DNA of 48,172 nucleotides, from NCBI GenBank assembly GCA_024655945.1, contig JANLFK010000014.1:57283-105454 (forward strand), written 5' to 3'. The stretch's first letter is position 1, and each line of letters starts with the position of its first letter. Below the pieces are notes generated by a model, which was not told the DNA's origin, searched no databases, and saw only the letters and a list, made by a program, of their open reading frames with translations. The position numbers and the translations under genes were made by a program. This document shows positions 6,001 to 47,620 of this stretch, piece by piece. This DNA comes from a candidate division KSB1 bacterium. GTDB taxonomy: Bacteria > Zhuqueibacterota > Zhuqueibacteria > JANLFK01 > Oleimicrobiaceae.

Positions 6001-9000
6001 ACGTCCCTGAACCTGCGACGATCGTCGCTGCGGCGGCGGATAGCTGCCTCGGCTTTGTGCAAACTGCGCCGGTGCCCCAGGTGGTGGGCCTGTTCTTCTC
6101 CCAGGATACGGTGCTTGCTGAGAGCAATGAGCCGTGGCAATGCGAGGTACGGCTGCGCAACGACGGCGAAGCGGGCCTCTTGTTCGAGCCGGCCACTCCC
6201 ACCGCGTTCAAGATCTCCATCCAGGGTGTGGACCAGACGAGCACCTACGAAGTGGTGCCGCCCAGCAGCCTCAGCTCCGCAGGCAGCCACCTATTAGCGG
6301 GCGGTACAGGCGACAGCTACCTCTTCGTGGTGCGGCGCACGGGCCCCTTGGGGGGCATGGCGGTGGTGCGGGTGACTCTCCAGGCCCACGACGCCAATCT
6401 CGGCCAGAGCGGGCCCACCTATGAGGTCATAGCGGAGGACAGCTTGTTCGTCAAGACTGCGGCGGTGGCGCGCGTGCGCCGCACCGAGGTGGTGAGCCGC
6501 AACGTCGACCCGCTCGGGGTGGGAATCGTCAATACCGGCCAGCAATTCTCCATCAAGGTGGTAGTGGAGGAAAAGCAGGGACGGGAGGGCCTGGACAGCG
6601 TTCGCGTGCAGCTCTTCCCTCCCGACACCACATTTGCTGTGGCCGAAAGTGTGCTGGTAATCCCCTGGATCGACCGTAACGGGGCAGACTCGGTGACATT
6701 TGCTGCGACTGCGCCTGGCCAGGAGAGGGCACAGCCGCAGCGATTCCAGGTGCGGGTGCTGTCGGCGATCGCCCATGAGAGCCGCATCCCGGCGACGGTG
6801 ATGCGCGAGCCTTTCTTGGAACAGGCCCTGGTGGTTGTGCAGCGTCCGGCCAATCTGAGCGTCAGGGTGGCGCTGGAAGGTGGTAACACCGTCCTCACTG
6901 CAGGACAGCCTTTCCGCGTGTTGGCGACGGTGACCAATCTTGGTTCAGCCGCCTGCGATAGCGGGAAGCTCCTGCTCACGCCCCCCGCAGGCTATCGGCT
7001 CGTCTCTGAGAAGGACACCTCGGACGCGCCGCGCCAGCTGCCCTTCGACCTGGGGAGCAAGCCTTCCACGACGCTTGCGGTGTCAGGCATTGCCCCTGGG
7101 GTAGCGAGCTCCGGTGATGTGTTCCGACTCGCCCTCACGGAAAAGCCTCGGGACCTGAACACCGGCGCAGAGGTGGCCGTGGCCAAGGGGATTGACACCC
7201 TGGCAGTGCAGACAGTCGCCCCCGGGATGGTGGTGGAAAGGGTGTGGCTAAGCTGGCCCCCCGGCGCAACTGATGACACCGTATCCACAGAACAGGACTT
7301 TGTGCTTTCGGCCCTGGTGGTTTCTTCCCCAGACCTGGCGCAGCGTCGGGCTGTCCTGCGTCTGCCGGCTGCGTCTGGCTACCAGTTACGTGCCGATTCG
7401 GTGCGTGCCATCAACTCATCTCCCCAGACCGTGAGCTGGACGGTGCGAGCCCCGTCAGATCCGGACATCCAGCCGGCAGTGTTGGTGGTCGTCGCCTCCG
7501 GTGTGGACGGTGCCGGCAACCCAGTGCGAGGCGACAAGACCCACGAGGTCTTAGCGGTCAAGAGGGCAATCTTGGCTCTTGAACCACTGGCTATCGTCGA
7601 GCCAGCGGGGGCCGCAAGCGGTGACCTCTCCGTCGGACAGAGGTTCAAATTGCAAGCGACGGTGAGGAACACCGGCGAGGCAGGCACCACGGGCACAGGT
7701 CGGCTCAAGCTCTCCTTGGGGCAGACCCGCTGCACCCTCGACCCCAGCGAGTCCGACTCCGTCAAGGCCTTCACCCCTGGCGCATCGCTCTATTGGTGGT
7801 TGCGGGCTGCGCCCGAGTTGACCTCCTCGGCAACGCTGAGCGTCACCATTATCGAGCGACCTGACGACGAAAACACCGGGAGCAGGGCGCAGGTCTCCAA
7901 TGCCACGAGCTTCCTCAACGTGCGCACTTTGGACCGTGGCTTCGTCCGAGTCGATACCGTGTTCATCAGCGAGCCGGCAGGAGCAGTGGACGGCACCTTG
8001 TCGACCGGACAGACCTTCATTGTGACCGCGCAGGTCACCTCCGCCAGGGTCTCTGGCGATACGCTGAGTGCCGTGCTGCGTGTGTCCGACGATAGCTACT
8101 ACGCCGAGTCGTGGAGCAAGAGGGTGGTGAGCGGGGAGCGCGCAGTGGTGCAATGGCGGGTTGAGGCGCCGAACCCGCCGGCGACCACCGGGCTTCCGGA
8201 CACGCTCTGGGTGACTGCCCTGGGTCGTGACTGGCGGAGCACCGACGTGTTCCTCACCTCGACCTCTGAGCCGCTGCTGGTGGTGCTGCAGAGACGAGCC
8301 GACTTTCGCCTGCGTGCGGAGGTCTTCCAGCCGACCGAGGCGGCGCGCGAGCGACGCCTCTCGACCGGACAGCTCTTCCAGATGCGGGCGTTGGTGGAAG
8401 TGGAAGGAGAAGCCGGGTTGATGCCGGGCGACCTTTTCACCGTGGAAATGACCACGCCCGGAAGCCGCTACAGCGTAGAAGAACCATTGGTGCAGAGTAC
8501 CAGCTCGGGGGTGCTCATCTGGACGCTGCGCGCACCCGCTACCCCTTCGGCAGGGCCGGAGCAGTTTAGCTTCCGCCTCCTCGACTGGCCGCGCGACGTG
8601 AACTCCGGGCAACGGGTGAGCACCCCGCTGGATCCGGACGACAAGGTGGCTGTGACCACGGTCAACAGGGCGCGACTCGTCTGCAAGGTTGCGATTGTCG
8701 CTCCGGCTGACGCTGTTGGCGGACAGGTGCGCGTGGGCCAGCACTTTGTGGTGCGTGCGTATGTGGAAAATCTTGGCGAGGCAGGCTACACGCGGGTGGA
8801 GGACTTTCGTTTCGGCCTCTCTCTTCCCTCCGGCTATGTCACGCAAGAGGAGACCGCCAAGGCGCCGACTGGTGAGGTGGCGACCGTACAGTGGCAAGTG
8901 CGCGCCCCTCTGCTGGCCACGCTGCAGTGGGACACCATCAGAGTGCAGCTGCTGGACGTCGGGCTCGACCAGTATTCTGAGCAAAAAGCCGAGGTGGCCG

Positions 9001-9863
9001 ATCCCGTGGCACTCCTTCCAGTGCGGACGGTAGCAGCCGTGGTGCATATGAGCGTCTACCAGGTGGACAGGCGCTCTTCGGCCATGACCGGGGCCACGGG
9101 AGTACCTCTGTTGGGGCTCCGCTTCTACAACCCTGCGGCGGAAGGGAGCACCCATTTCTTGCTGGAAAGGCTGGTGGTGCAGCTCCGTGACCCGCAAGGG
9201 GGAGAGCTGTCGCCCCAAGAGACCATTTCTCGGACAGCGGCCATCAGACGCGGACAGCCTCTGTGGCCATTCGTGCAGGTAACCGAAATCCCGGCTGCGA
9301 ACCCACTGGTGCTGGACTTTACCACCGGCTCTCCGGACACCTTATGGGCCAGTGTGCCAGACTCGGTGGAGCTGGTCGTGGACCTTCTGCCTCACACCAG
9401 GGCGCAGCGCCTGATGCTGGCCGTCGATTCGGCGCTGCATGTGGTCGTGCGCGATGCCGAGTCGGGCCAGCTGGTCACGGTGACCGACACCCTTGGCAAC
9501 TTCAGTGCGGCCATGCGCTTGCGGTCGGATTTCCGGGTGGTCGTGCAAGGGGAGTTCGACAAGGCTTTTGGCACGTACCCCAATCCCTTTGGCCAGCCGG
9601 ATAGGCCGGTGACCACCTTTATCTACAACCTGACGGCCGATGCCGATGTGACCATTTCCATCTATTCGCTGATTGGCGAGCTGGTCTGGACGCGGCATTT
9701 CCCCAGGGGCTCTCCACCCGCAAAGGCGGGGGCCCACGAAGGGGAAATTTTCTGGGACGGGCGAAACGATCGTTGCCAGCGGGTGCTCAACGGCATCTAC
9801 ATCGCGCGCATTGTCACCAGTACTGGGCAGGAGGCTATCACCAAGATTGGCGTGGTGCATTGA
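3..9863 (+). CDS. Giant modular secreted surface protein with C-terminal T9SS-type sorting domain (5' partial)
   Basis: The reading frame is open from the first bases of the window. The text before the first possible start (TTG at 12) reads PGALGSFGLTG, matching the later internal repeat PGTALGTFGLTGYP, so the true start lies upstream. About 3,285 residues are visible. Numbering from nt 12, residues 1-520 are alternating Ig/filamin-like modules in the order A-B-A-B-A (A modules carry VTAYDxxxN, B modules QTAGxPFAL). From about 521 to 3010 come roughly 20 CARDB-like beta-sandwich modules of about 120 residues, each opening with a motif like VTxGQ followed by VxVRN. The last ~97 residues hold YPNPF, ISIYSLIGELV, WDGRN and LNGIYIARI, which is the FlgD-Ig/T9SS type A sorting-domain pattern. 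I infer an outer-membrane-exported, cell-surface or released fibre-like protein. No catalytic domain is apparent, so adhesion or structural roles are guesses. The PorV-like gene follows after 23 bases. Confidence 0.85.
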   Translation, partial: PGALGSFGLTGVPAAVVAGSAFPSSVVVTAYDVYGNVKTNYAGSVSWSSSDTQASLPTAGGGFSSGQKSFGGSSFALKTAGAQTVTVTDVEAGVSATSAAVTVSPAAVASFTLADPGNQTAGVPFALSISNARDSYGNFVSGVFTLDAVAGGEAAPDGTAPVLTPITVVAGSGSALQTLYRAESGVRLRAQQAGVSRSTASFTVAPGTALGTFGLTGYPNAVVAGQTFGGDSVVVTAYDQWENIKTDYAGQVWFTSTDTNAVIAYDAAHPIALVNGSRSFPWSDFDLRTSGQQRITVTNGTVSRVSDYINVSAAAISDFTLGASSPQTAGQPFALTVSNAKDQYNNAASGLVTVSIASGGGDAPNATPPRLADIVVVNGTGSAMQTLYNAVSTQLRGQTGSVTRTTGTIAVTPGTLGRFALTGYPTRTGAQTSFAQNVTVIAYDRYDNLKTNYTGQVYFTSSDAGATLPYDVNNRYTFTPEENGTHTFSGSGFVLRTPGLQSITVNDYATNISKQSDPIDVYALEINSVTSAVANVTQGQQGVQVTMAVRNYGALPVTITAADLSFSSAQPQDRSADYVVVRTDPAKQIPANGTQTLTFSVVVKAPASPGLVTVDGSVSGLYDGTAVSAVGAASKHLWTVQTPPNLAITAVSVVADTVRQGQADVAITVLLQNTGANAATARIDSVRFSLQRGGIPVDSEYRIVASPANPTTLSAEQSRQFAFTLSASRSATPGVVQVTAHVYARDVNTGNSYTASSMQPELFTLVQQPSLELQDIRASQANVTQGQTAVWTVTVRVQNKSLTDLIVDLSPGSTYVTFRKGAQDVTGEYTISRPAALEGGGTILEGGGPPDSLVFTVVTTGQTTGDITIAARVACKDGTYDDSGRSGVFGGVTVQAVPVLTIDRVVPSQDSVTVGQSRAWQIDVHIRNSGGTNLLIDFAQSALSLSPEEAPGVEIVKPSALLNGNDLILEAGTADVMRFVVTRTGVAAGQVSIGATVRAVNVNSGASLARTATSTVWAQTAADLKITRVEASDTTVTAGQTRDWTVRVHLANLGQSDVLLDLTPGATRPIFAPTGNHKVVWPTGLEGSGGTRLRGGATGALLFVVDQTGPTAAEVAVHAQVRAIEVNSGRELTDDTYDAGSDTVLIQSPATVSYLAGSLSPGSVNRGSYAAFSLRVRNSGGSTVILQQQSTWLKIDDGQGHIFQALLNGPAGSVIAPGDTTLTFVGTQVPRTMLPGFYAPVLQLSGTENQNPFSQQTTLPDVVQVAAEARLAIQNTAASQPSVTQGQTRPWFLSVYVSNNGVTPVALDSARVRLYRLGNEVTGEYTLQQPTVFYGSGMRVLAPGASDELRFPVVQTVATTTGPIRIYGEVWATEVTDPTNHLYAATNTQWGYFTAQTPAQLAVLRVRPSQPAVTVGQSTEWSISVVLGNAGGSDLLVDTLAARTFVGFSAGSGWAVVPPQALAGGGLLLEAGSLDSLMFVVTRSSTTPGVVAVTATVAAEEVNSGRQLTASSDVEQAGMVTVQQPAVVRLAGLEVEAPNTPYVNVGQGYKLRVQVRNLGEETATNAVVALKSEPQLSAIPTTVTLPSVPGGQLVEARASAIAGAIPDTVEAVTASLVQALSKNTGLPVTILPAESASDSFTHVYMQRPAALDITSVVAVPDTVLAGQTGPFWTIRVAVRDTGSAGAVLAAPAPSNLTILVSGQEQGDYLIGAPSEFVGGGLTLSGGQERLLEYTVFKTGAKGGIGQILVELQGQDLNDPTQVLHVTSHGSFYVASPARAQIASTVVRAHNVAPDGTAHVNVRQEFAVEVVVANVGGEDLADVRVGLRTQYSQAPQSQLIPVVKVGQEQTVVFPLRADSLRRPQGELFEAVIEAARGAASGLAAQVLPPLDATALAIIDSPARVRLRRVYLAMPNAPYLTSAEKVDARAVVENLGSESVHNVRVRLGAAPDNALIPDTLVVTTSALGGTPDSAVVNFSMRAGTTPGPVTFRAYVDSAYADNVPEPATIVAAAADSCLGFVQTAPVPQVVGLFFSQDTVLAESNEPWQCEVRLRNDGEAGLLFEPATPTAFKISIQGVDQTSTYEVVPPSSLSSAGSHLLAGGTGDSYLFVVRRTGPLGGMAVVRVTLQAHDANLGQSGPTYEVIAEDSLFVKTAAVARVRRTEVVSRNVDPLGVGIVNTGQQFSIKVVVEEKQGREGLDSVRVQLFPPDTTFAVAESVLVIPWIDRNGADSVTFAATAPGQERAQPQRFQVRVLSAIAHESRIPATVMREPFLEQALVVVQRPANLSVRVALEGGNTVLTAGQPFRVLATVTNLGSAACDSGKLLLTPPAGYRLVSEKDTSDAPRQLPFDLGSKPSTTLAVSGIAPGVASSGDVFRLALTEKPRDLNTGAEVAVAKGIDTLAVQTVAPGMVVERVWLSWPPGATDDTVSTEQDFVLSALVVSSPDLAQRRAVLRLPAASGYQLRADSVRAINSSPQTVSWTVRAPSDPDIQPAVLVVVASGVDGAGNPVRGDKTHEVLAVKRAILALEPLAIVEPAGAASGDLSVGQRFKLQATVRNTGEAGTTGTGRLKLSLGQTRCTLDPSESDSVKAFTPGASLYWWLRAAPELTSSATLSVTIIERPDDENTGSRAQVSNATSFLNVRTLDRGFVRVDTVFISEPAGAVDGTLSTGQTFIVTAQVTSARVSGDTLSAVLRVSDDSYYAESWSKRVVSGERAVVQWRVEAPNPPATTGLPDTLWVTALGRDWRSTDVFLTSTSEPLLVVLQRRADFRLRAEVFQPTEAARERRLSTGQLFQMRALVEVEGEAGLMPGDLFTVEMTTPGSRYSVEEPLVQSTSSGVLIWTLRAPATPSAGPEQFSFRLLDWPRDVNSGQRVSTPLDPDDKVAVTTVNRARLVCKVAIVAPADAVGGQVRVGQHFVVRAYVENLGEAGYTRVEDFRFGLSLPSGYVTQEETAKAPTGEVATVQWQVRAPLLATLQWDTIRVQLLDVGLDQYSEQKAEVADPVALLPVRTVAAVVHMSVYQVDRRSSAMTGATGVPLLGLRFYNPAAEGSTHFLLERLVVQLRDPQGGELSPQETISRTAAIRRGQPLWPFVQVTEIPAANPLVLDFTTGSPDTLWASVPDSVELVVDLLPHTRAQRLMLAVDSALHVVVRDAESGQLVTVTDTLGNFSAAMRLRSDFRVVVQGEFDKAFGTYPNPFGQPDRPVTTFIYNLTADADVTISIYSLIGELVWTRHFPRGSPPAKAGAHEGEIFWDGRNDRCQRVLNGIYIARIVTSTGQEAITKIGVVH

Positions 9864-36381: not shown

Positions 36382-36762
36382 ATGCTGACGTCCATTAGCG
36401 TCACGGTCATTGCCGCCTTTATTGCCATCTTCGTCCTCGCGCTCATTCCGGTGCTGTGGCAGATCAGGCGTACCGCCAAGGAGGCCGAGAAGCTCCTGGA
36501 GACGGTTCGCCTCCAGATGGCGCCTGTTGCGCATGACGTGGCACGGGTGGTCGACGACGTGCGCGACCTCGTCAAACAGCTGCAGCGGCAGATGGGCAAA
36601 GTGGAGGAGAGCGTCGACGCGGTGCGCGACACCGTGGTCAAACTGCGCGACGTGGAAAGTCTGCTCCGCGACCGTATCGAAAAGCCGCTCCTCGGCATCG
36701 TCGGCACTGTGGGGGCCCTGCTCAAGGGCGTGCGCGTCTTCTTGCAGTACGTCCGCCGATAG
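36382..36762 (+). CDS. DUF948 membrane-anchored coiled-coil protein
   Basis: The 126-residue protein has an N-terminal membrane segment (VTVIAAFIAIFVLALIPVLW) followed by a long helix with heptad-like hydrophobic spacing (ARVVDDVRDLVKQLQRQMG). This is the DUF948 pattern, often found beside YtxH proteins. The function is unknown. ATG 36382 follows GAAGGAGC. The segment near the C-terminus (LLGIVGTVGALLKGV) is mildly hydrophobic. It is probably an envelope or stress protein working with its YtxH neighbour. Confidence 0.85.
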   Translation: MLTSISVTVIAAFIAIFVLALIPVLWQIRRTAKEAEKLLETVRLQMAPVAHDVARVVDDVRDLVKQLQRQMGKVEESVDAVRDTVVKLRDVESLLRDRIEKPLLGIVGTVGALLKGVRVFLQYVRR

Positions 36763-36853
36763 AAGGTTTCCGGCGGCCCAGACCCGCCAAGGCTATGCCG
36801 ATGCACGAGGGCGCGCTGGGTGGTGGAGACAGAGACTGGGATGGCATGCACCG

Positions 36854-39535
36854 GTGAATCAGCTTCTTTGGCATACCCTGCCGTGTGAAGAGGTGCTGCG
36901 GCAGCTCGGGAGCAGCAGCAGCGGTCTGACGAGCGCCGAGGCAGCGCGCCGTCTTGCCCAGTACGGCGCAAACGAGCTGGAGCGCGCCGAGGAGATCTCG
37001 CGGTGGAAAATCTTCCTCGGCCAGTTCAAGAACGTCCTCATCATCATCCTCCTCGTTGCCACCGCCATTTCCGCAGCGCTTGGCCACAGCACAGAGGCCG
37101 TCGCCATCTCCTTGATCGTGCTCTTTTCCGTGTTCATGGGCTACGTGCAGGAGTACCGGGCGGAGCGGGCGCTTGAGGCGCTGCGCCGCATGGCCGCCCT
37201 GCGCGCGACGGTGATCCGCGACGGCACGGAACAAGAAATCCCCTCCCGCGAAGTCGTGCCCGGCGATGTTGTCCTCCTCTCTGCGGGGGACAAAGTACCA
37301 GCCGATGGCCGCCTGCTGGAAGTGGTCAACCTCCAGGTCGACGAGGCGGCCCTGACTGGCGAGTCCCACCCGGTGGAAAAGAGTTCTGCGGCCATAGAGA
37401 ACGGCGCCCTCCCCATTGGCGACCGCGTCAACATGGTGTACAGTGGCACCGTCGTCACCTACGGGAGGGGACAGGCCGTCGTGGTCGCCACCGGAGCGCA
37501 GACCGAGTTTGGCCGGGTCGCCGAGCTCCTCAAGACGGTGGAGGCCGCCAAGACTCCCCTCCAGGAAAATCTCAATCGCGTGGGCTCCATCCTGGCGCAG
37601 GTAGCGTTGGTGCTGGTGGCCTTGATCGGCGCCTTGGGCGTACTGCGAGGCAAGCCCCCCCTGGAAATGTTTCTCTTTGCCATTGCCATGGCCGTGGCCG
37701 TGGTGCCAGAGGCCTTGCCGGCAGTGGTGACTATCGCCTTGGCGCTCGGGGTACAGCGCATGGCCAAGCGCAATGCGCTCATTCGTCGTCTTCCCGCCGT
37801 GGAGACATTGGGCAGTGCTTCGGTGATATGCACCGACAAGACCGGCACCCTGACTAAAGACGAAATGACCGTGCGCCGCCTGTTTGTGGGGGATCGCTTT
37901 ATCGATGTGACCGGCGCAGGCTATGAACCGATCGGGCAGTTTCTCTGCCAGGGGGAGGCGGTCGATCCGGCCGCTGATCCTGTGCTGCACCGGCTGCTGC
38001 GCGCCGCGGTACTGTCCTCCGACGCCCACTTGGTGCACCACGAGGAGACTGGGCGCTGGTCGATTCGCGGCGACCCCACGGAGGGGGCGCTCCTCACCCT
38101 GGCTGCCAAGGCAGGAGTGCACAAGGCTGAGCTCGAGGCAGAGTACCCGCGCGTGCAGGAGATCCCTTTTTCCTCCGAGCGCAAGCGCATGACCACCTTG
38201 CACCGTGCCCCGTCCGGGGTGGTGGCCTGCGCGAAAGGAGCCCCCGAGGTCATCCTCAGCTCCTGCTCGTTTCTGGCCACAGCCAAAGGGAACGTGCTGC
38301 TGGACAAGGCCAGCCGGGAGCGTATGCTGCAGCACGCCGCAGCCATGGCCGGCGAGGCTATGCGTGTCTTAGCAATCGCCTGGAAGCCTGAGGCCACCAC
38401 CGAAACGGCCGAGCAGGGGATGGTCTTCTTAGGGCTTGTGGGGATGATTGACCCGCCACGGCCGGAGGCGAAAGAGGCCTTGCGCCGATGCCGCCAGGCA
38501 GGCATCCGCGTGGTGATGATCACCGGCGACCATCCCATCACCGCGCAGGCCATCGCCGGTGAGCTGGGCCTGACGCAGAGCGGCGTGGCGGTCACCGGCA
38601 GCCAGGTGGACGCCATGAGCGACGAGGAGCTGGAGGCGCGCGTCGAGGAGATCGACGTCTATTCGCGGGTGGCGCCGAGCCACAAGCTGCGCATCGTTGC
38701 CGCCTTGCAGAAGAAGGGGCACGTGGTGGCCATGACCGGCGACGGGGTCAACGATGCGCCCGCGCTCAAGAAGGCCGACATCGGCGTGGCCATGGGGATC
38801 ACCGGCACCGACGTGAGCAAAGAGGCCGCTGCCATGACGCTCACCGACGACAACTTTGCCTCCATAGTCGCGGCCATTGAGGAAGGGCGGGGGGTCTTCG
38901 ACAACATCAAGAAGTTCCTCATGTACCTCTTGTCCTCCAACGTCGGCGAGATTGGCCTGATGGCTGGGGCCCTGCTTGCCGGGCTTCCGCTGCCCCTGAC
39001 TGCGGCGCAGATCCTCTACGTGAACCTGGCCAGCGATGGGTTTCCGGCGCTTGCTCTGGCGGTCGACCCGGCGGCGCCCGATCTCATGCGGCGGCGGCCA
39101 CGGCGCCCGCGCGCTGGGATCTTCACCAGACCCGTGGTCTCCCTGATGGCCTTGGCCGGTCTCTGGTCAACGATGGTCAACCTGGGCCTCTTCTCCAGGG
39201 CCTATGGGAGTGGGCGAAGCCTGCAGGAGGCCATGACCATGGCCTTCGTCTCCTTGATTGGCATCCAGTTCCTGAAGGCATACAACTTCCGTTCTGATCG
39301 CCATTCGGCCCTGCGGCGCCCGTTTGCCAACAAATGGCTGAACCTGGCCATCTTGTGGGAGATGCTTCTGTTGTGCACAATCATCTACGTTCCTTTGCTG
39401 CAGCGGGTGTTCGGGACGTATGCGTTACCACTAAGAGACTGGCTCATTGTGGGGCTGGCTACCGCAACGGTTGCACCCGCCCTGGAGTTTGGAAAGTGGC
39501 TGGTAAGGCGTGGGTGGCTCGGTGCCCTCGAATAG
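36854..39535 (+). CDS. Cation-transporting P-type ATPase, P2A Ca2+-type
   Basis: The 893-residue pump matches normal P2A length. It has an N-terminal cation-ATPase domain, TGES, PEALP at 285-289, the phosphorylated D328 in CTDKTGTLT, KGAPE, and TGDGVNDAPALKKADIG. The TM5-TM6 region keeps the SERCA Ca2+ ligands: Asn and Glu in SSNVGE, then Asn, Ser (for Thr) and Asp in VNLASDG; E286 corresponds to SERCA E309. Calcium (or manganese) export is therefore the best guess. GTG 36854 is used: the open frame continues upstream, but that part is the DUF948 gene in another frame and has no family match. A hairpin pair sits at the 3' end. Confidence 0.92.
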   Translation: MNQLLWHTLPCEEVLRQLGSSSSGLTSAEAARRLAQYGANELERAEEISRWKIFLGQFKNVLIIILLVATAISAALGHSTEAVAISLIVLFSVFMGYVQEYRAERALEALRRMAALRATVIRDGTEQEIPSREVVPGDVVLLSAGDKVPADGRLLEVVNLQVDEAALTGESHPVEKSSAAIENGALPIGDRVNMVYSGTVVTYGRGQAVVVATGAQTEFGRVAELLKTVEAAKTPLQENLNRVGSILAQVALVLVALIGALGVLRGKPPLEMFLFAIAMAVAVVPEALPAVVTIALALGVQRMAKRNALIRRLPAVETLGSASVICTDKTGTLTKDEMTVRRLFVGDRFIDVTGAGYEPIGQFLCQGEAVDPAADPVLHRLLRAAVLSSDAHLVHHEETGRWSIRGDPTEGALLTLAAKAGVHKAELEAEYPRVQEIPFSSERKRMTTLHRAPSGVVACAKGAPEVILSSCSFLATAKGNVLLDKASRERMLQHAAAMAGEAMRVLAIAWKPEATTETAEQGMVFLGLVGMIDPPRPEAKEALRRCRQAGIRVVMITGDHPITAQAIAGELGLTQSGVAVTGSQVDAMSDEELEARVEEIDVYSRVAPSHKLRIVAALQKKGHVVAMTGDGVNDAPALKKADIGVAMGITGTDVSKEAAAMTLTDDNFASIVAAIEEGRGVFDNIKKFLMYLLSSNVGEIGLMAGALLAGLPLPLTAAQILYVNLASDGFPALALAVDPAAPDLMRRRPRRPRAGIFTRPVVSLMALAGLWSTMVNLGLFSRAYGSGRSLQEAMTMAFVSLIGIQFLKAYNFRSDRHSALRRPFANKWLNLAILWEMLLLCTIIYVPLLQRVFGTYALPLRDWLIVGLATATVAPALEFGKWLVRRGWLGALE

Positions 39536-39864: not shown

Positions 39865-39915
39865 TAGCCTTGAAGGGGCGCATTGCTGGCGTGTGCGAAG
39901 CGGAGGAGATGGGTG

Positions 39916-40521
39916 ATGGAAGTAAAGCTTGAAAGCCTGATTGAGAAGATCAAGCAGGAGGGCATCGAGGAGGCGCGGCAAACTTCACAGGAGATCATTG
40001 CCAAGGCGGAGGCGGAGGCAGCTGCCAAGCTGCAAAAGGCAGAACAGGAGGCGGCGCGCATCGTGGAGGAGGGAAAGGTGCAGGCGGCGCGCTTCCAGGA
40101 GAACGCCGAGCGAGCCTTACAGCAAACAGCGCGCGACACCATCCTCAGCCTCAAGGAGCGCATCAACGAGCTCTTCGACCGGGTCTTCAAGCGGGCTGTG
40201 GCGCAAACGCTGTCGCCGGAGTTCCTCAGCCAGCTCATTGCACATCTGCTGACCAACTGGGCGCGCGATGGTGCAGTAGAGGTGGTGGTCAGCGCCGAGG
40301 ACAAGGAGAAACTGGAGGCGCTCCTGTTTGCCGGCCTGCGCCAGCAGCTGCGTGACGGCCTGGTGCTTCGGGTGGGCGATTCGGTGGGAAAAGGCTTCCG
40401 CATCGGCCTGCGGGGCGAGGACGTCTACTACGACTTCTCCGACGAGAGCATCGCGGAGGTCCTCAAATCGTTCCTCAACCCGACCCTGCAGGCGCTGCTG
40501 AACGGCCAGGACAATGGATAA
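39916..40521 (+). CDS. atpE: A/V-type ATP synthase subunit E (peripheral stalk)
   Basis: The 201-residue protein has an N-terminal long helix rich in Ala, Glu, Lys and Gln (about 5-95) and a C-terminal globular part, the normal subunit E layout. It forms the peripheral stalk that holds the A3B3 head against rotation. ATG 39916 follows CGGAGGAG; an upstream in-frame start would add only a basic leader. It is the first gene of the operon and overlaps the DUF2764 gene by 8 bases. Weak sequence conservation makes position in the operon an important part of this call. The symbol follows V-type naming and is not the F-type c subunit. Confidence 0.85.
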   Translation: MEVKLESLIEKIKQEGIEEARQTSQEIIAKAEAEAAAKLQKAEQEAARIVEEGKVQAARFQENAERALQQTARDTILSLKERINELFDRVFKRAVAQTLSPEFLSQLIAHLLTNWARDGAVEVVVSAEDKEKLEALLFAGLRQQLRDGLVLRVGDSVGKGFRIGLRGEDVYYDFSDESIAEVLKSFLNPTLQALLNGQDNG

Positions 40522-41011
40522 GCACTACTACCTCGTTTCGCAGCTGCCCACCCTGTACTTCGACAGGGAAGCCTACTTGACGGTGGAGACCTTCCTCCAG
40601 GAAGCGGCAAAGTGGCTGTCCGCCAGCGAGTATGCCACCCTGGCAGCCGTCGACATCAACGACGTCACCATCCCCAAGCATTGCCCTGGCGTGCTTGCCG
40701 CCTACAAAGACTTTGAACGACGCCTGTGCGCGGATCTTGCCGCCTGGCGGCAGGCGCAGAGGAGCGGCCAGGATTATAAGCCCGCCACCTTCGCCCCCAG
40801 CCTTGTCAGGGAGGGCAACCCATTGGAGGTGGAGAAGCGTTTGCTTCGGCTGCGGTGGGACTTTGTCGAGCAGCACGAGAGCGACCACCACTTCGATTTC
40901 GAATTCCTGATTTTGTACATGCTCAAGCTGCAGATTCTGCGGCGGCTGTTCACCTTCAACAAGGAAAAGGGGATGCAACTGTTCAGGCAACTTTGTGAGG
41001 TCCAGCCATGA
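40514..41011 (+). CDS. DUF2764 protein, V-ATPase operon subunit
   Basis: The 165-residue protein opens with YYLVSQLPTLYFD, typical of DUF2764, and has a helical C-terminal half with aromatic and charged residues (WDFVEQHESDHHFDFEFLILY). DUF2764 genes sit between subunits E and A in the V-ATPase operons of Bacteroidetes, spirochaetes and chlamydiae. No recognisable canonical subunit C is encoded here, so this protein may take the C-like place linking the central stalk to the membrane ring. That role is inferred from synteny. It overlaps both neighbours (8 bases with E, 4 with A). Confidence 0.82.
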   Translation: MDKHYYLVSQLPTLYFDREAYLTVETFLQEAAKWLSASEYATLAAVDINDVTIPKHCPGVLAAYKDFERRLCADLAAWRQAQRSGQDYKPATFAPSLVREGNPLEVEKRLLRLRWDFVEQHESDHHFDFEFLILYMLKLQILRRLFTFNKEKGMQLFRQLCEVQP

Positions 41012-42750
41012 GCACGGCGGTAGGCAAGATCATCGGCGTGAGCGGCAACATGGTGGCTATTGCCGTCGATGGCAATGTGATGCAGAATGAGGTGGGCCAC
41101 ATCGTGCACGGCGAGGAGCGCCTGGTCTCCGAAGTGGTGCGCATCAACCGCGACGTAGCCTACGTGCAGCTCTTTGAGAGCACCAAAGGATTGAAGGTCG
41201 GCGACCGCGCCGAATTCGCCGGGCACCTCCTTTCTGCTGAGTTGGGACCGGGCCTCTTGGGCCAAATCTACGACGGCCTGCAGAACCCACTGCCGCAACT
41301 TGCGGCAGAGTTCGGCTTCTTCTTGCCCAGAGGGGTAAAGCGACCGGGCCTGGACCTGGAAAAGAAGTGGTCCTTCACCCCGACGGTGAAGAGGGGCGAG
41401 GTAGTGCGGGCGGGAATGCCGCTCGGCCACGTGCCCGAGGGGATCTTTCGCCACTACATCATGGTTCCGTTCGACTTCCGAGGGGACTACACGGTGGAGG
41501 AGATTGCCGACCCTGGCGACTATGCGGTCACCGAGACGGTTGCCACGTTGCGCGCCGCCACCGGAAAGATGGTCCCGCTGACCATGTCGTTCCACTGGCC
41601 CGTCAAGATCCCGATCCGGGCCTACCGGGAGCGTCTCGTTCCCAAGGAGACTTTTATTACTCGGGCGCGGATCATCGACAGCTTCTTTCCGGTGGCCAAG
41701 GGAGGCACCTTCTGCGTGCCCGGCCCCTTCGGGGCGGGTAAGACGGTATTGCAGCAGCTCATCAGCCGCTACGCGGATGCGGACATCGTCATTGTTGCCG
41801 CCTGCGGTGAGCGCGCCGGCGAGGTGGTGGAGACGCTGCGGGAGTTCCCACACATCGAGGACCCGCGCACCGGGCGTTCGCTCATGGAGCGGACGATTAT
41901 CATCGTCAACACTAGCGCCATGCCGGTGGCCGCCCGGGAGGCATCCGTGTACACCGCCGCCACGCTCGGCGAGTACTATCGCCAGATGGGGCTGAACGTG
42001 TTGCTCCTGGCGGATTCCACCTCCAGATGGGCGCAGGCCATGCGCGAGATCTCCGGACGTCTGGAGGAGATTCCAGGTGAGGAGGCCTTTCCTGCTTACT
42101 TGGAGTCGCGCATCGCCGAGTTCTATGAGAGGGCGGGTTTGGTGGTGTTGCCCAATGGCGAGATGGGCAGCCTGACCATCGGCGGCACGGTGAGTCCGGC
42201 AGGCGGCAACTTCGAGGAGCCGGTCACCCAGGCCACCCTGAAAGTGGTAGGTGCCTTCTTGGGGCTGAGCCGCGATCGCGCCAACGCGCGACGTTTCCCA
42301 TCCATCGACCCGCTGGACAGCTGGAGCAAGTACGATAGCTTCATCCCTGCGGACCAGCTGCGCGATGGCAAACAGATTCTGGCCACTGGCAACGAGGTGC
42401 GCCAGATGATGATGGTGGTCGGCGAGGAGGCCACCTCCATCGACGACTTTGTCATCTACCTAAAGTCGGAATTCCTGGATGCGGTCTACTTGCAGCAAAA
42501 CGGCTTTGACCCCATTGATGCCGCAACCTCCAAGGAGCGGCAGCAATATGTCTTCGCCAAGGTGCACAAGGTGCTGACGGCGGATTTTGCCTTCGGCACC
42601 AAGGACGAGGCGCGGGAGTACTTCTATCGGCTGCGTCAGCATTTCATTGACTGGAACTACATGCCCATGGATTCGCCGGAATTCAGCACCCAGGAGCAGG
42701 CCATCGATCGACTGCTGGAGGAGCGCACCGCCCATGCGAAGAGTCTATAG
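41008..42750 (+). CDS. atpA: A/V-type ATP synthase catalytic subunit A
   Basis: The 580-residue protein has the N-terminal barrel, the A-specific non-homologous insert, and the nucleotide domain with Walker A GPFGAGKT at 239-246. [39 protein letters not shown] and the C-terminal helical domain are all in place. It hydrolyses or makes ATP in the A3B3 head. The ATGA overlap with the gene before and a 17-base overlap with subunit B indicate coupled translation. All catalytic motifs look intact. Confidence 0.96.
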
Positions 42751-44101
42751 CAGGATCCTGCAAGTAGTCGGCAACGTCATCACCGTGCGTGCCAGCGACG
42801 TTGCCTACGAGGAGCTGGCCGAAATCACCACGCAGCGCGGCAAATCCCTTGCTCAGGTCATCAAGTTGGACGGTGATCTGGTCTCGCTGCAGGTGTTCGC
42901 AGGAAGCCGAGGCATCTCGGTCAACGACGAGGTGCGCTTCCTCGGTCACCCCATGCTGGTGACCTTCTCGGAAAATATGCTGGGCCGCGTCTTCGACGGC
43001 GCGGGCATGCCGCGTGACAAGGGGCCACAACTGAGCGAGCACCTCATTCCAGTTGCTGGGCGGCCGGTCAACCCCTACAAGCGCATCATTCCCCGACGCA
43101 TGATCCGCACCAACATCCCGATGATCGACGTGTTCAACTCCTTGGTGGTCTCCCAGAAGCTGCCGATCTTCTCGGTCTCCGGGGAGCCCTATAACGAGCT
43201 GCTGGCCAGGATTGCTTTGCAGGCCGAGGTGGACATGATTATCCTCGGCGGCATCGGCTTGAAGTACGACCAGTACATGTACTTCAAGACGGTGCTCGAG
43301 GAAGGTGGTGCCCTGTACCGCTCGATCTTTTTCATCAATACCGCAGCTGACCCCATCGTGGAAAGCCTCATGGTGCCTGACCTCTGCTTAGCGGTCGCCG
43401 AGAAGTTTGCCCTGCAGGGGAAAGACGTGCTGGTGCTCCTGACCGACATGACTAACTTTGCCGACGCGCTCAAGGAGATCTCCATCACCATGGAGCACGT
43501 GCCCTCCAACCGCGGCTATCCTGGCGACCTCTACACGCAGCTTGCCCAGCGCTATGAGAAGGCCGTGGACTTTGAGGACGCCGGTTCCATTACCATCCTG
43601 GCCGTCACCACCATGCCCGGCAACGACGTGACTCACCCGGTGCCTGATAACACCGGCTACATCACCGAGGGCCAGTTCTACCTGCACGGTGGGCGCATCG
43701 ACCCCTTCGGCTCGCTCAGTCGCCTCAAGCAGCTGGTGAACAAGAACACGCGCAAGGATCACCGCGCCATCATGGACGGCATGATCCAGCTCTATGCGCA
43801 ATACAAGGAGACCGAAGAGAAACGCGCCATGGGTTTCCGCATGAGCACCTGGGACAACAAGCTGCTCAAATACGGCAAGCTCTTCGAAAGTAGAATGATG
43901 GACCTCTCGGTGAACATCCCCTTGGAAAGGGCATTGGACTTGGGATGGGAGATTCTGGCGGAGTGCTTCCGGCCTGAGGAGACCGGGCTGCGCACAGAGC
44001 TGATCAAGGAGTTTTGGCCGGGCATAGCGGAGCGGAAGGCGGCAGAGGCAGTGCCCGAAGAGGTGGGCGAGGCCGTAGCCGCAGAAGCAGCCAGGCAATA
44101 G
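42734..44101 (+). CDS. atpB: A/V-type ATP synthase subunit B
   Basis: The 455-residue non-catalytic nucleotide-domain subunit alternates with A in the head. It has the B-type degenerate P-loop region ([21 protein letters not shown]), the [10 protein letters not shown] segment, and [15 protein letters not shown], with SIPLE-like and C-terminal helical regions. ATG 42734, inside the end of subunit A, gives the normal B length and N-terminus ([14 protein letters not shown]). Longer in-frame alternatives are out-of-frame subunit A sequence. V-type naming applies: this is not the F-type subunit a gene that lies near 47267. Confidence 0.95.
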
Positions 44102-44113
44102 CAGGACCGGGCG

Positions 44114-44716
44114 ATGGCAAAGGTCAGGCTGACAAGGATCGAGCTGAAGAGGCAAAAGGACAACCTGCGGCGCTTCCTCCGCTACCTGCCGACATTGGAG
44201 CTCAAGAAGCAGCAATTGCTGCAGGAAATCCGCGCGTTGCAGCGCACCCGCGAGTCCTTGCTGGCGGACATCGAGCGGGTGAACAGCGAGGTCAGCCAGT
44301 GGGCAGACGTGTTTGCCGAGGAGGTGGGGCTGCCGTCCTTGGTAAAGGTGGCCGAGGTCGTCACCGATACCGGCAACATCGCGGGCATCGACATCCCTTT
44401 GTTTGGCGCCGTCCGCTTCGCGGAGGTGCCCTACGACCTTTTCACCACGCCGCTGTGGGTCGACCAGGGGATTGCGGTCTGCAAGGAGCAGATCGAGCGG
44501 CACATCCGGTTGCGCATCATCGACCGCCAGCTGGCGATCCTGCAAGAGGAGTTGCGGGTGACCATCCAGCGCATCAAGCTGTTTGAGGAGATCAAGATCC
44601 CGGAGGCGCAGGAGAACATTCGGGTGATCCAGATATTCTTGGGCGACCAGATGACCGCCGAGGTGGTGCGGGGCAAGATCGCCAAGGCAAAGCTCGAAAA
44701 GCGGCGCGAAGAATGA
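44114..44716 (+). CDS. atpD: A/V-type ATP synthase subunit D (central stalk)
   Basis: The 200-residue protein is a long antiparallel coiled coil typical of subunit D, with the conserved N-terminal TRIELKRQKDNLRRF and the C-terminal RRIIDRQ-like helix region (HIRLRIIDRQLAILQEELR). It is the rotating axle inside the A3B3 head. It starts 12 bases after subunit B and overlaps subunit I by 4 bases (ATGA). No subunit F gene is visible beside it. Confidence 0.92.
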   Translation: MAKVRLTRIELKRQKDNLRRFLRYLPTLELKKQQLLQEIRALQRTRESLLADIERVNSEVSQWADVFAEEVGLPSLVKVAEVVTDTGNIAGIDIPLFGAVRFAEVPYDLFTTPLWVDQGIAVCKEQIERHIRLRIIDRQLAILQEELRVTIQRIKLFEEIKIPEAQENIRVIQIFLGDQMTAEVVRGKIAKAKLEKRREE

Positions 44717-46488
44717 TTGTCAAGATGAAAAAGCTCACCCTGCTCGTGCGGGCGGTGGACAGAAGCGATGCGGTGGCGCGGTTGCGCCAGCTGGGAGTGG
44801 TGCACGTGCACCCGGTTGCCGCGCCGCAATCGGAGGACGTGGCGCGGCTGGAGGGTGAACTGACCGAAGTGGAGCGGGCCCTGAGCATAGTTGGCCCTGA
44901 GAGCCCCGAGCCGCCCGTAGAGGCGCAGGAGCCCGGGCAACTGATTGCGCACATCCTGGAGCGTGCCCGCCAACGGGAGCAACTGACCCGCGAGCTGGAG
45001 GAGCTGCGCGAACAACGTCGGTGGTTCGAGCGCTGGGGACGGGTGTCGCTCAGCGCGGTCAAGGACTTGGAGCGTGCGGGGGTGGTCCTGCGCTTCTACG
45101 TGGGGGAACGGCAGGCGGTACAGGCCTTGCCGCCGGAGAAGTCGATCCAGGTGGTCCGCCAAGAGCAGCGCATGCTGTACTTCGTCTACTTTGCTACCTC
45201 TGCTGATGACCGCCTGGACTTCAGAGAAGACCCCATGCCTGCCGTGGAAGTGGATGCTCTGGAAGCGCAAATGGCAGAGGTGGAAAGCGCCATCGGCGCT
45301 CTCGAACAGGAGCTGGCAGGGTTGGCGCGCCATCGCAGGGCGCTTGCCCGCCACCACGAGCACCTGGCCAAGCGCCTTGAGTTCAGTCGCGTGCTCGCCG
45401 GCATGGGCCAGGCCGAAGAGATCGCCTTCCTGCAGGGGTATTGCCCTGCCGATGAGGTGAAGCGCGTGACGGCCGCCGCCGACCGCGAGGGGTGGGCCTA
45501 CACCGTCGAAGACCCCGACAACCCTGAAGAGGTGCCAACGCTCATTCGCAACCCCCGCTGGCTGCGGATCGTGGAGCCGGTGTTCAAATTTCTGGGGACC
45601 GTGCCTGGCTACCAGGAGCACGACATCAGCTTCTGGTTTCTACTTTTCTTCAGCGTGTTCTTCGCCATCCTCATTGGCGACGCCGGCTACGGCCTCATTT
45701 TCCTTGGGGCGACCTGGCTGGCGCGCCGCAAGCTGAGCAGCGCGCCACGCGAGCCATTCCTGCTCATGTACGTGTTGAGCTTTGCCACGATCATCTGGGG
45801 GGCCATGTCGGGCAACTGGTTTGGCGTGGCGCAAATCGGGCAGCTGCCTTTCTTGCGCCGGTTTATCGTTGAGCCGGTGAATGCCTTTGCCCTCGACAAT
45901 CAAAATTTCCTGATGTACCTCTGTTTCGTCATCGGGGCGTTGCACCTGACGGTGGCCCATGCCATGAACGCCTTCCGGCTGATCAACTCGCTGCGGGCGT
46001 TGGCGCAACTGGGGTGGATTGCCATCGTCTGGGGGCTGTTCTTCACAGCTGGGCGCCTGGTCTTGGGCAAGAGCGGGCCATCATCGACGGTCATCTTGGC
46101 GCTCGTCGGCGGCGGCACGGCGCTGGTGCTCCTGTTCGCCAACGCGCAGTGCAAGTTCCTCAAGGGCGTGCTGCAGTCATTGGCGGAAACGCCGCTGAGC
46201 GTCATCAGCTCCTTCTCTGATGTGGTCTCGTACCTGCGGCTTTTCGCAGTCGGTTTTGCTTCGGTCACGGTAGAGTCCAGTTTCAACGACATGGCCATGG
46301 GCTTGGGCTTCAGCTCGGTGCTGCGCGGACTGATTGCGGCCTTTATCCTCTTCTTTGGTCATGCGCTGAACATCGTGCTCGGCTTCATGGCGGTGATTGT
46401 GCACGGTGTGCGGTTGAACATGTTAGAGTTCTCCGGCCACCTGGGTATGCAGTGGTCCGGGCGACCTTACCAGCCCTTTCGGGAGTGA
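44713..46488 (+). CDS. atpI: A/V-type ATP synthase membrane subunit I
   Basis: The 591-residue protein has a cytoplasmic N-terminal half with coiled-coil segments (1-310) and a C-terminal half with about seven or eight membrane helices. The start of the membrane part contains FWFLLFFSVFFAILIGDAGYG, and later SVISSFSDVVSYLRLFAVGFASV carries the conserved Arg that faces the ring carboxylates. It forms the ion half-channels and anchors the stalk. The start overlaps subunit D, and the K gene follows after 40 bases. Not to be confused with F-type AtpI/AtpZ. Confidence 0.95.
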   Translation: MIVKMKKLTLLVRAVDRSDAVARLRQLGVVHVHPVAAPQSEDVARLEGELTEVERALSIVGPESPEPPVEAQEPGQLIAHILERARQREQLTRELEELREQRRWFERWGRVSLSAVKDLERAGVVLRFYVGERQAVQALPPEKSIQVVRQEQRMLYFVYFATSADDRLDFREDPMPAVEVDALEAQMAEVESAIGALEQELAGLARHRRALARHHEHLAKRLEFSRVLAGMGQAEEIAFLQGYCPADEVKRVTAAADREGWAYTVEDPDNPEEVPTLIRNPRWLRIVEPVFKFLGTVPGYQEHDISFWFLLFFSVFFAILIGDAGYGLIFLGATWLARRKLSSAPREPFLLMYVLSFATIIWGAMSGNWFGVAQIGQLPFLRRFIVEPVNAFALDNQNFLMYLCFVIGALHLTVAHAMNAFRLINSLRALAQLGWIAIVWGLFFTAGRLVLGKSGPSSTVILALVGGGTALVLLFANAQCKFLKGVLQSLAETPLSVISSFSDVVSYLRLFAVGFASVTVESSFNDMAMGLGFSSVLRGLIAAFILFFGHALNIVLGFMAVIVHGVRLNMLEFSGHLGMQWSGRPYQPFRE

Positions 46489-46528
46489 CGGCAGCAAAGC
46501 TCTTTTGTGAGTCGAAAGGAGGCAGAGT

Positions 46529-46969
46529 ATGGTGCAGGGATTTGGTGACATGAGCATTTCGTTGGCCTTGGCGGCGGTGGGCTCGGCACTGGGTACCGGG
46601 GCGGCGGGGATGTCGGCGGTGGGAGCCTGGAAGCGGGCTTTTGCCCAAAACAAGGCGGCGCCGTTCATCATGGTCGCCTTTGTGGGTGCCCCCCTGTCGC
46701 AGACCATCTACGGCATGATCCTGCGCAATGCCATCCGCAGCGCCAATCTGCCGGCGGAATCCTACCTGTACCAGATCCTCCTGGGCGCCTTTGCTGGCTT
46801 TGCCATGGGCATGTCCGCCTACATGCAGGGCAAGGCGGGGGCAAAGGCAGCCGACGCCTTGGGCGAAACCGGCAAGGGCTTTGGCCAGTACATCATGGTG
46901 CTGGGCATCATCGAGACGGTCGCCCTGTTCATCATGGTCTTCACGCTGGCGGCCATTCCCAGGCTGTGA
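46529..46969 (+). CDS. atpK: A/V-type ATP synthase proteolipid subunit K
   Basis: The 146-residue, four-helix proteolipid consists of two hairpins, with the ion-binding Glu E129 only in the last helix (IIETVALF), as in duplicated V-type rotors. Helix 2 has S57-Q58 (APLSQTIYG) and helix 3 has Q100 (YMQGKAGA). These match T64, Q65, Q110 and E139 of the sodium-binding Enterococcus hirae NtpK, and the Q100-E129 spacing (29) equals Q110-E139. Sodium coupling is therefore plausible. A strong ribosome site (AAAGGAGG) precedes the ATG, fitting the high copy number of ring subunits. It is the last gene of the operon. Confidence 0.94.
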   Translation: MVQGFGDMSISLALAAVGSALGTGAAGMSAVGAWKRAFAQNKAAPFIMVAFVGAPLSQTIYGMILRNAIRSANLPAESYLYQILLGAFAGFAMGMSAYMQGKAGAKAADALGETGKGFGQYIMVLGIIETVALFIMVFTLAAIPRL

Positions 46970-47017
46970 GCGCGCCTGCCAGCGCAACCAGGCAGGTTCA
47001 AGCGCGAGGCCTTCCGA

Positions 47018-47244
47018 GTGGGCGAGCAGAACAGGCTTGCCACCGTTCGGCAGTTAAGCCTGGCGATGGCTACCGTGGCGCGCATCAGCGCCCTTGTCTT
47101 GGTCTGTGTCGCCGCCCCCTTGGCGCCCTGGGGCTCTACTTGGATCGGCTGTTTGGTACTGCACCCTGGCTGTTGATCGTAGGGATGCTCCTCGGGGTCG
47201 TGCTCTGCGTGGTGAGTGTTGCTCGTCTTGCTCGTCGGCAATAG
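47018..47244 (+). pseudogene. AtpZ/AtpI-like F-type ATPase accessory gene, frameshifted
   Basis: Reading from GTG 47018 gives a hydrophobic start (LATVRQLSLAMATVARISALVLVCVAAP), then switches to poor sequence and soon stops. The next frame from about 47110 gives PLGALGLYLDRLFGTAPWLL and IVGMLLGVVLCVVSVARLAR to a stop at 47244. That is the second hairpin of AtpZ/AtpI-type proteins, including the typical LDRxxGTxPW. Adding one C to the CCCCC run at 47115-47119 joins the two into one ~75-residue two-helix protein. It is therefore either a real one-base deletion or a homopolymer sequencing error. The GTG start is uncertain. In F-ATPase operons this gene precedes atpB, as here. Confidence 0.7.
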
Positions 47245-47266
47245 TTGAGCGCTGAGTATCCGCCGC

Positions 47267-47620
47267 ATGAAAAAGCGAACCAAGATCCTGATGATTCTCT
47301 TAGCGGCCGTGGCCTTGCTCGTCGCCGGCAACCTCTACCTGCGCTTCCGCTTGCCGCCGGTGATGATCCGGGCAGAGGCCACACCAGGGTTGTGCATCGG
47401 TCCACTGCAGGTAACCAACACGCTCCTCACGGCGCTGCTGGTGGATGTCATCCTGGTGGCGCTCGCCTTAGCTGCCACGCGACGCATACGCCTGGTCCCC
47501 TCCGGCTTGCAGAATTTCGTGGAGTGGGTCATCGAGACCTTATACCGACTCACCGAATCGGTGGCCGGAACCAAGTGGACGAGTAGCGTTCTTTTTATTC
47601 AGGCTTTTCTAAGGGGATAA
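47267..47620 (+). pseudogene. atpB: F-type ATP synthase subunit a, truncated by an insertion sequence
   Basis: The 117-codon frame starts with a membrane segment (ILMILLAAVALLVAGNLYL) and shows the subunit a N-terminal pattern: ITN-like VTNTLLTALLVDVILVALAL, then LVPSGLQNFVEWVIETLYRL and TESVAGTKW. Native subunit a would continue with several more helices, including the essential arginine. Here the similarity stops near 47580 and the frame ends in unrelated, AT-richer sequence at 47620. The remaining two-thirds is absent from this window, so the product cannot form a working proton channel. It follows the frameshifted atpZ-like gene by 22 bases. The rest of atpB may lie beyond the insertion, outside the window. 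Confidence 0.82.

Follow-up and report, generated by a model that had tools for sequence, protein, structure and literature searches.

The end of the stretch of DNA analysed here (48,172 nucleotides, hereafter the window) raises the question of whether a cell with two rotary ATPase operons in tandem is losing one of them. The window covers the final 48 kb of contig C14, and the two end together (G000:C14:105454), in a draft genome (G000) of 3.94 Mb in 26 contigs that is 97.7% complete and 0.45% contaminated. An earlier note on this DNA had described a complete A/V-type operon ending at 46969, followed within 50 bases by an atpZ/atpI-like gene and then by atpB, with both of these F-type genes broken, and had read the locus as one ATPase replacing the other.

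Two operons in tandem

The features of the locus, with coordinates in the window, are:
39883 to 46969, plus strand: complete V/A-type ATPase operon E-C(DUF2764)-A-B-D-I-K, seven genes, all frames open
39883 to 40521, plus strand: V-type E (NCBIfam V-type subunit E, 4e-49)
40514 to 41011, plus strand: DUF2764/C-like (Pfam DUF2764)
41008 to 42750, plus strand: V-type A, open (the operon shows Pfam ATP-synt_ab)
near 42747 to 44101, plus strand: V-type B, open
44114 to 44716, plus strand: V-type D (Pfam ATP-synt_D)
44713 to 46488, plus strand: V-type I (V_ATPase_I just below its cut-off)
46529 to 46969, plus strand: V-type rotor subunit K, two hairpins (Pfam ATP-synt_C)
47018 to 47244, plus strand: atpZ/I-like gene, split over two frames (PF09527 1.5e-8, second frame only)
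47267 to 47581, plus strand: 5' third of atpB (F-type a subunit); the rest lies on contig C10, minus strand, ending near 142013
47574 to 47581, plus strand: 8-bp target-site duplication AGTGGACG, with its second copy across the insertion sequence, on C10
47582 to 48172, plus strand: left part of an IS256/Mutator-like insertion sequence (IS), transposase from 47690, ended by the contig end

The V-type operon is as complete as the note had described, with seven open genes from E to K that include the core subunits A, B, D, I and K of a bacterial V/A-type ATPase. E-C-A-B-D-I-K is the gene order of the Chlamydia/Spirochaete-type V-ATPase operon, and the operon here is the same in order and content, with nothing essential different. 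The atpZ/I-like gene begins 48 bp past the end of K in the same orientation, and atpB follows at 47267, again as claimed. The stretch that the note had headed as the start of an F-type operon (46529–47620) opens with V-type K (46529–46969), and the F-type part starts at 47018. A search for a terminator or promoter between K and atpZ gave nothing above chance.

Directly upstream of the V-type operon, 36410–39535 holds the gene of a P-type cation ATPase (E1-E2 type, carrying both the N-terminal and the C-terminal cation domain); its translation probably begins well inside this frame, near 36.8 kb. At the opposite end of the window, a single open frame of 3283 aa (12–9860) has CARDB as its sole Pfam match, and TPR and SpoIIE/HATPase proteins come after it.

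Lesions in the F-type operon

Both F-type genes in the window are indeed broken. Compared with the intact gene of a sister species (G001), the reading frame of the atpZ/I-like gene shifts by a net +2 near 47123, seen as a frame change in tblastn and in a pairwise DNA alignment. The atpB gene is cut after 47581 by the IS256/Mutator-like element, which reaches the end of the window. In a profile search of the G000 contigs, the a subunit model matched exactly twice and each time in part: in the window (model positions 2–60) and at the end of contig C10 (55–216), which is the second half of the F-type locus. Read towards the operon, C10 opens within the second part of a transposase of the IS256 type, and the right part of the element occupies C10 142678–143274. 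The assembled parts (591 and 597 bases) come to ~1.19 kb together; the middle is unassembled, although the left part has one assembled copy in the genome. The transposase matched PF00872 (1e-7), and the right half matched NCBIfam IS256 at 8e-13, which is under the curated cut-off, both halves being incomplete. IS256-like elements are characterized by an IS256/Mutator transposase and a target duplication of 8–9 bp, and the element here has both.

The duplicated AGTGGACG is the only 8-mer common to the two junction stretches compared, and it is placed where a target duplication is expected. Joined together, the two atpB flanks give one uninterrupted 332-codon AtpB frame, and the two genes behind atpC on C10 (x1 and x2) stand behind atpC in the sister species too. 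The duplication, the single frame and these shared neighbours show that C14 and C10 are adjacent and that the IS is a real insertion. A false join through a multi-copy IS was ruled out, since the left part is assembled in one copy only.

The note had proposed a search beyond the IS for atpE, atpF, atpH, atpA, atpG and atpD. C10 reads, in order, the right part of the IS, atpB, atpE, atpF, a truncated atpD (atpD'), atpC, x1 and x2, which matches the order in the sister species; atpH, atpA and atpG are missing. Relative to the sister sequence, ~3.2 kb is gone between atpF and atpD: atpA and atpG are lost whole, atpH almost entirely, and atpD lacks its first ~80 codons. The deletion junction falls at a short similarity (GCGCGG...GCA) common to the atpH start and the interior of atpD, and the deletion may have arisen between such short repeats. 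The atpH start codon now leads in frame into what remains of atpD, and the resulting open frame of 401 aa has no N-terminal barrel (L003 14990–16195). The assembly is a consensus only, and the deletion and the frameshift are each read from that one consensus.

The gamma and delta subunits had no match anywhere in the 97.7%-complete genome in profile searches with PF00231 and PF00213, models that gave matches in nine control genomes. No F-type alpha was found among the genome-wide PF00006 matches; the others were a FliI-like protein (L005, judged by eye), V-type A and B, and a weak match on contig C17 that we take to be Rho. A second intact F-type operon, which the note had named as evidence against decay, and F1 genes scattered elsewhere were ruled out by these searches and a genome-wide search with PF00119. 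The sister species thus has the full F-type set of a, c, b, delta, alpha, gamma, beta and epsilon, while G000 lacks delta, alpha and gamma and has a truncated beta and an interrupted a. With three subunits missing and the a subunit split, no F1F0 enzyme can assemble. Judged by the gene content of the genome, the F-type ATPase is dead through at least three lesions (the atpZ/I frameshift, the IS in atpB and the ~3.2-kb deletion), and the V-type enzyme is the only rotary ATPase left.

Relatives, timing and origin

In the sister species, an intact F operon (Z-B-E-F-H-A-G-D-C) stands at the same site, 48 bp behind the V operon and in the same orientation, on a contig that starts inside V-type A. 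The second sister species (G002) has the same V-F order over two contigs, with a gap from mid-atpB to atpF; the frames of H, A, G, D and C are all open there, and atpZ/I can be aligned over the full length. Since the one species is intact and the other has the same order, the simplest reading is that the V-F tandem is ancestral to the sampled genus and that the decay is specific to G000. Intact atpZ and atpB in a close relative, which the note had listed as a possible objection, therefore represent the ancestral state and do not refute decay. Its proposal of two operons brought together, with the F-type being lost and the V-type kept, agrees with the C10 half of the locus, with a G000 genome that lacks gamma, delta and F-type alpha, and with the V-F tandems of the genus.

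The F-type remnants are still about 87–98% identical in amino-acid sequence to their counterparts in the sister species, with dN/dS of 0.02–0.25 that shows no clear difference from the kept genes (0.014–0.095 in the V operon); for atpD' the values are 98% and 0.023. No strong signal of relaxed selection in the remnants was found by dN/dS. High identity and low dN/dS indicate that the inactivation is recent relative to the species split. Amino-acid changes number 16 (G000 branch) and 5 (G001 branch) in the F genes, and 32 and 16 in the V genes; by raw counts, the excess on the G000 branch in the F genes is only mild. Two conserved helix-1 glycines of the glycine motif are changed in G000 AtpE, and AtpD carries L237P at a position that reads L in both genus-mates and in 13 of 14 class or phylum sequences. 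Together, the low dN/dS and the changes at these conserved sites fit a recent loss.

We surveyed 60 genomes of the class (G000 included) and found V-type D in 24 and atpB in 52. Both occurred on one contig only in this genus and in G034. There (L071 and L182, on C242 and C107), atpB-E-F, and probably H too, are arranged tail to tail with the V operon, with A-G-D-C on another contig, which makes this a second V-F neighbourhood. None of 80 further V-type loci showed a V-F tandem; the sequence behind subunit I reaches 2 kb or more in only 55 of them and 5 kb or more in 42. In one of the 80 (L085, apparently the same contig as in G034), atpE and atpF face the V genes tail to tail from the opposite strand. 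Six class genomes (G022, G037, G040, G041, G044 and G058) have V-type D and neither an atpB nor a gamma match, so cells with the V-type alone do exist. The V-type D of G022, G041, G044 and G058 is of another kind (E near 1e-50), and G022 and G044 have the common kind too.

Where did the F operon come from? The a subunit of the genus has no comparable relative in 82 phylum genomes: the best match elsewhere has an E value of 4e-9 over a quarter of its length, and the best matches outside the genus (G059, G030, G017 and G005) are short and lie in apparent N-type clusters. One such beta-first cluster (L077, G005:C231) has a Na+-type c subunit (IESTAIY) and is apparently an N-ATPase; its genome also has ordinary F-type and V-type genes, making three rotary ATPases. 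Against PDB 9itj, the a subunit of the genus scored 214 bits (4e-62) over nearly its full length, with the next PDB match at 3e-21, compared with 36.5 bits for the best ordinary F-type class-mate and 47.6 for an N-type class-mate. We take 9itj to be a Chloroflexus enzyme; a search of the literature for confirmation found none. The c subunit gave 80.5 bits against 9itj, 43.9 against the best ordinary F-type class-mate and 48.9 against the N-type. For the F1 subunits the scores were close: 233 bits against 9itj and 219.5 against a class-mate for gamma, and 706 against 727 for alpha. By these scores F_O is clearly of another kind than the phylum's own, the F1 signal for a foreign origin is weak, and the operon is possibly a mosaic. 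The F operon was probably acquired horizontally and arrived later than the V-type. Since the V-type is widespread in the class, and the F-type is confined to this genus within the phylum and looks foreign, the F-type is probably the newcomer now being lost. The replacement suggested by the note is thus right in that the F-type is lost and the V-type kept; the incoming V-type that it implies is the part that probably does not hold.

Ion use, the cause of the loss and known systems

The two rotors of the tandem differ in predicted ion use. In alignments, residues S57, Q58, Q100 and E129 of K fall on the Na+-ligand positions of E. hirae NtpK, where the ligands are T/S64, Q65, Q110 and E139 (PMC2359735). 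With all of these ligand residues in K, the kept V-ATPase is predicted to be Na+-type. The F-type c subunit of G001 and G000 reads AFAEAIAIY, with no helix-1 Q and no S/T after the glutamate; it lacks the signature of Na+-translocating F-ATPases (Q32 and S/T66 beside E65, I. tartaricus numbering), and we infer a H+-type rotor. G000 also has Nqr and Rnf operons that look complete, and a hydrogenase-4-like complex with a NuoH-type subunit that scores far below class-mates with strong NuoH matches.

In the reading that we favour, the F operon would have been gained horizontally as a second, H+-type enzyme behind the resident V-type. It would have been redundant where electron transport pumps Na+ through Nqr and Rnf and the V-type rotor is Na+-type; a cell with both could do without a H+ ATP synthase. 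The F operon would then decay under relaxed selection, and the V-type would take over all ATP synthesis or ion pumping. We are highly confident in this reading as a whole: a dead F-type and an intact V-type, through loss of a redundant, acquired H+ enzyme that leaves the Na+-type V-ATPase alone.

As to cause, the F-type may simply have been dispensable and lost by drift, with Na+/H+ coupling irrelevant. This view overlaps with the favoured one, and we give it a serious though somewhat less than even chance. All three genus members have Nqr/Rnf-type and NuoH-type subunits, and the tested ion-pump repertoire therefore does not set the species that lost the F-type apart from those that keep it; the pumps explain why the loss is tolerated, not why G000 alone suffered it. 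Against drift, the K and c rotor residues of this genus differ in just the Na+/H+ way in which multiple rotary ATPases of one genome typically do (1,137 of 1,388 genera; PMC11738941), which suggests distinct roles. In a more speculative extension, which we consider rather unlikely, the V-F tandem would be a two-ion cassette under one promoter, its Na+ V-type and H+ F-type exchanging sodium- and proton-motive force, and G000 would have been caught switching to sodium-only bioenergetics.

That the F operon is intact in the organism, and that contig ends, chimeric joins or sequencing errors from assembly or binning mimic its breakage, is very improbable. The genome is a draft, C14 and C10 both end inside the IS, and the frameshift by itself could be a sequencing error. 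The target duplication, the single AtpB frame across the IS site and the synteny with the sister species on both sides nevertheless rule out the contig-end artefact that the note had considered; there are three independent lesions, and gamma, delta and alpha are absent at 97.7% completeness. Least credible of all is that truncated AtpD, AtpE, AtpF and AtpC are expressed and serve the V-type enzyme or a partial complex: some product may be made from atpD', in frame behind the atpH start and so little changed from the sister gene, but gamma, alpha and delta are missing, the a subunit is split, AtpE is without its conserved helix-1 glycines, and recent loss predicts low dN/dS equally well.

Which ATPase a lineage retains, and why, is mostly reconstructed from presence and absence when the event is long past. 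This genus has both an intact V-F tandem, in a sister species, and a freshly broken F operon, in G000, and the loss is visible in progress. With an identifiable resident and probable newcomer that differ in predicted ion use, replacement and redundancy of ATP synthases become directly testable in close relatives.

Gene loss, co-occurrence of ATPases and operon transfer are each known already; a V-F tandem with one half freshly broken was not described in the open-licence literature searched. N-ATPases are horizontally spread second F-type ATPases, with beta first and delta lacking. The F operon of this genus is like them an extra, transferable operon beside a resident one, and differs in its ordinary gene order, which includes delta (not beta and epsilon first with atpQ/R), and in a c subunit without the Na+ signature. 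One F-type and one A/V-type enzyme in the same genome is a common pairing, found in 890 genera (ProAD, PMC11738941; Mahendrarajah et al. 2023, PMC10656485). The accessible parts of these papers count presence and describe no such tandem; here the two operons stand directly in tandem, 48 bp apart, and one is being lost. The Thaumarchaeota offer a parallel, in that a second rotary ATPase operon was gained horizontally and some species have both and others one (Wang et al. 2019, PMC6863869). Those are A- and V-type-like variants in archaea, whereas here a bacterial F-type operon stands behind a V-type one and its broken genes can still be seen.
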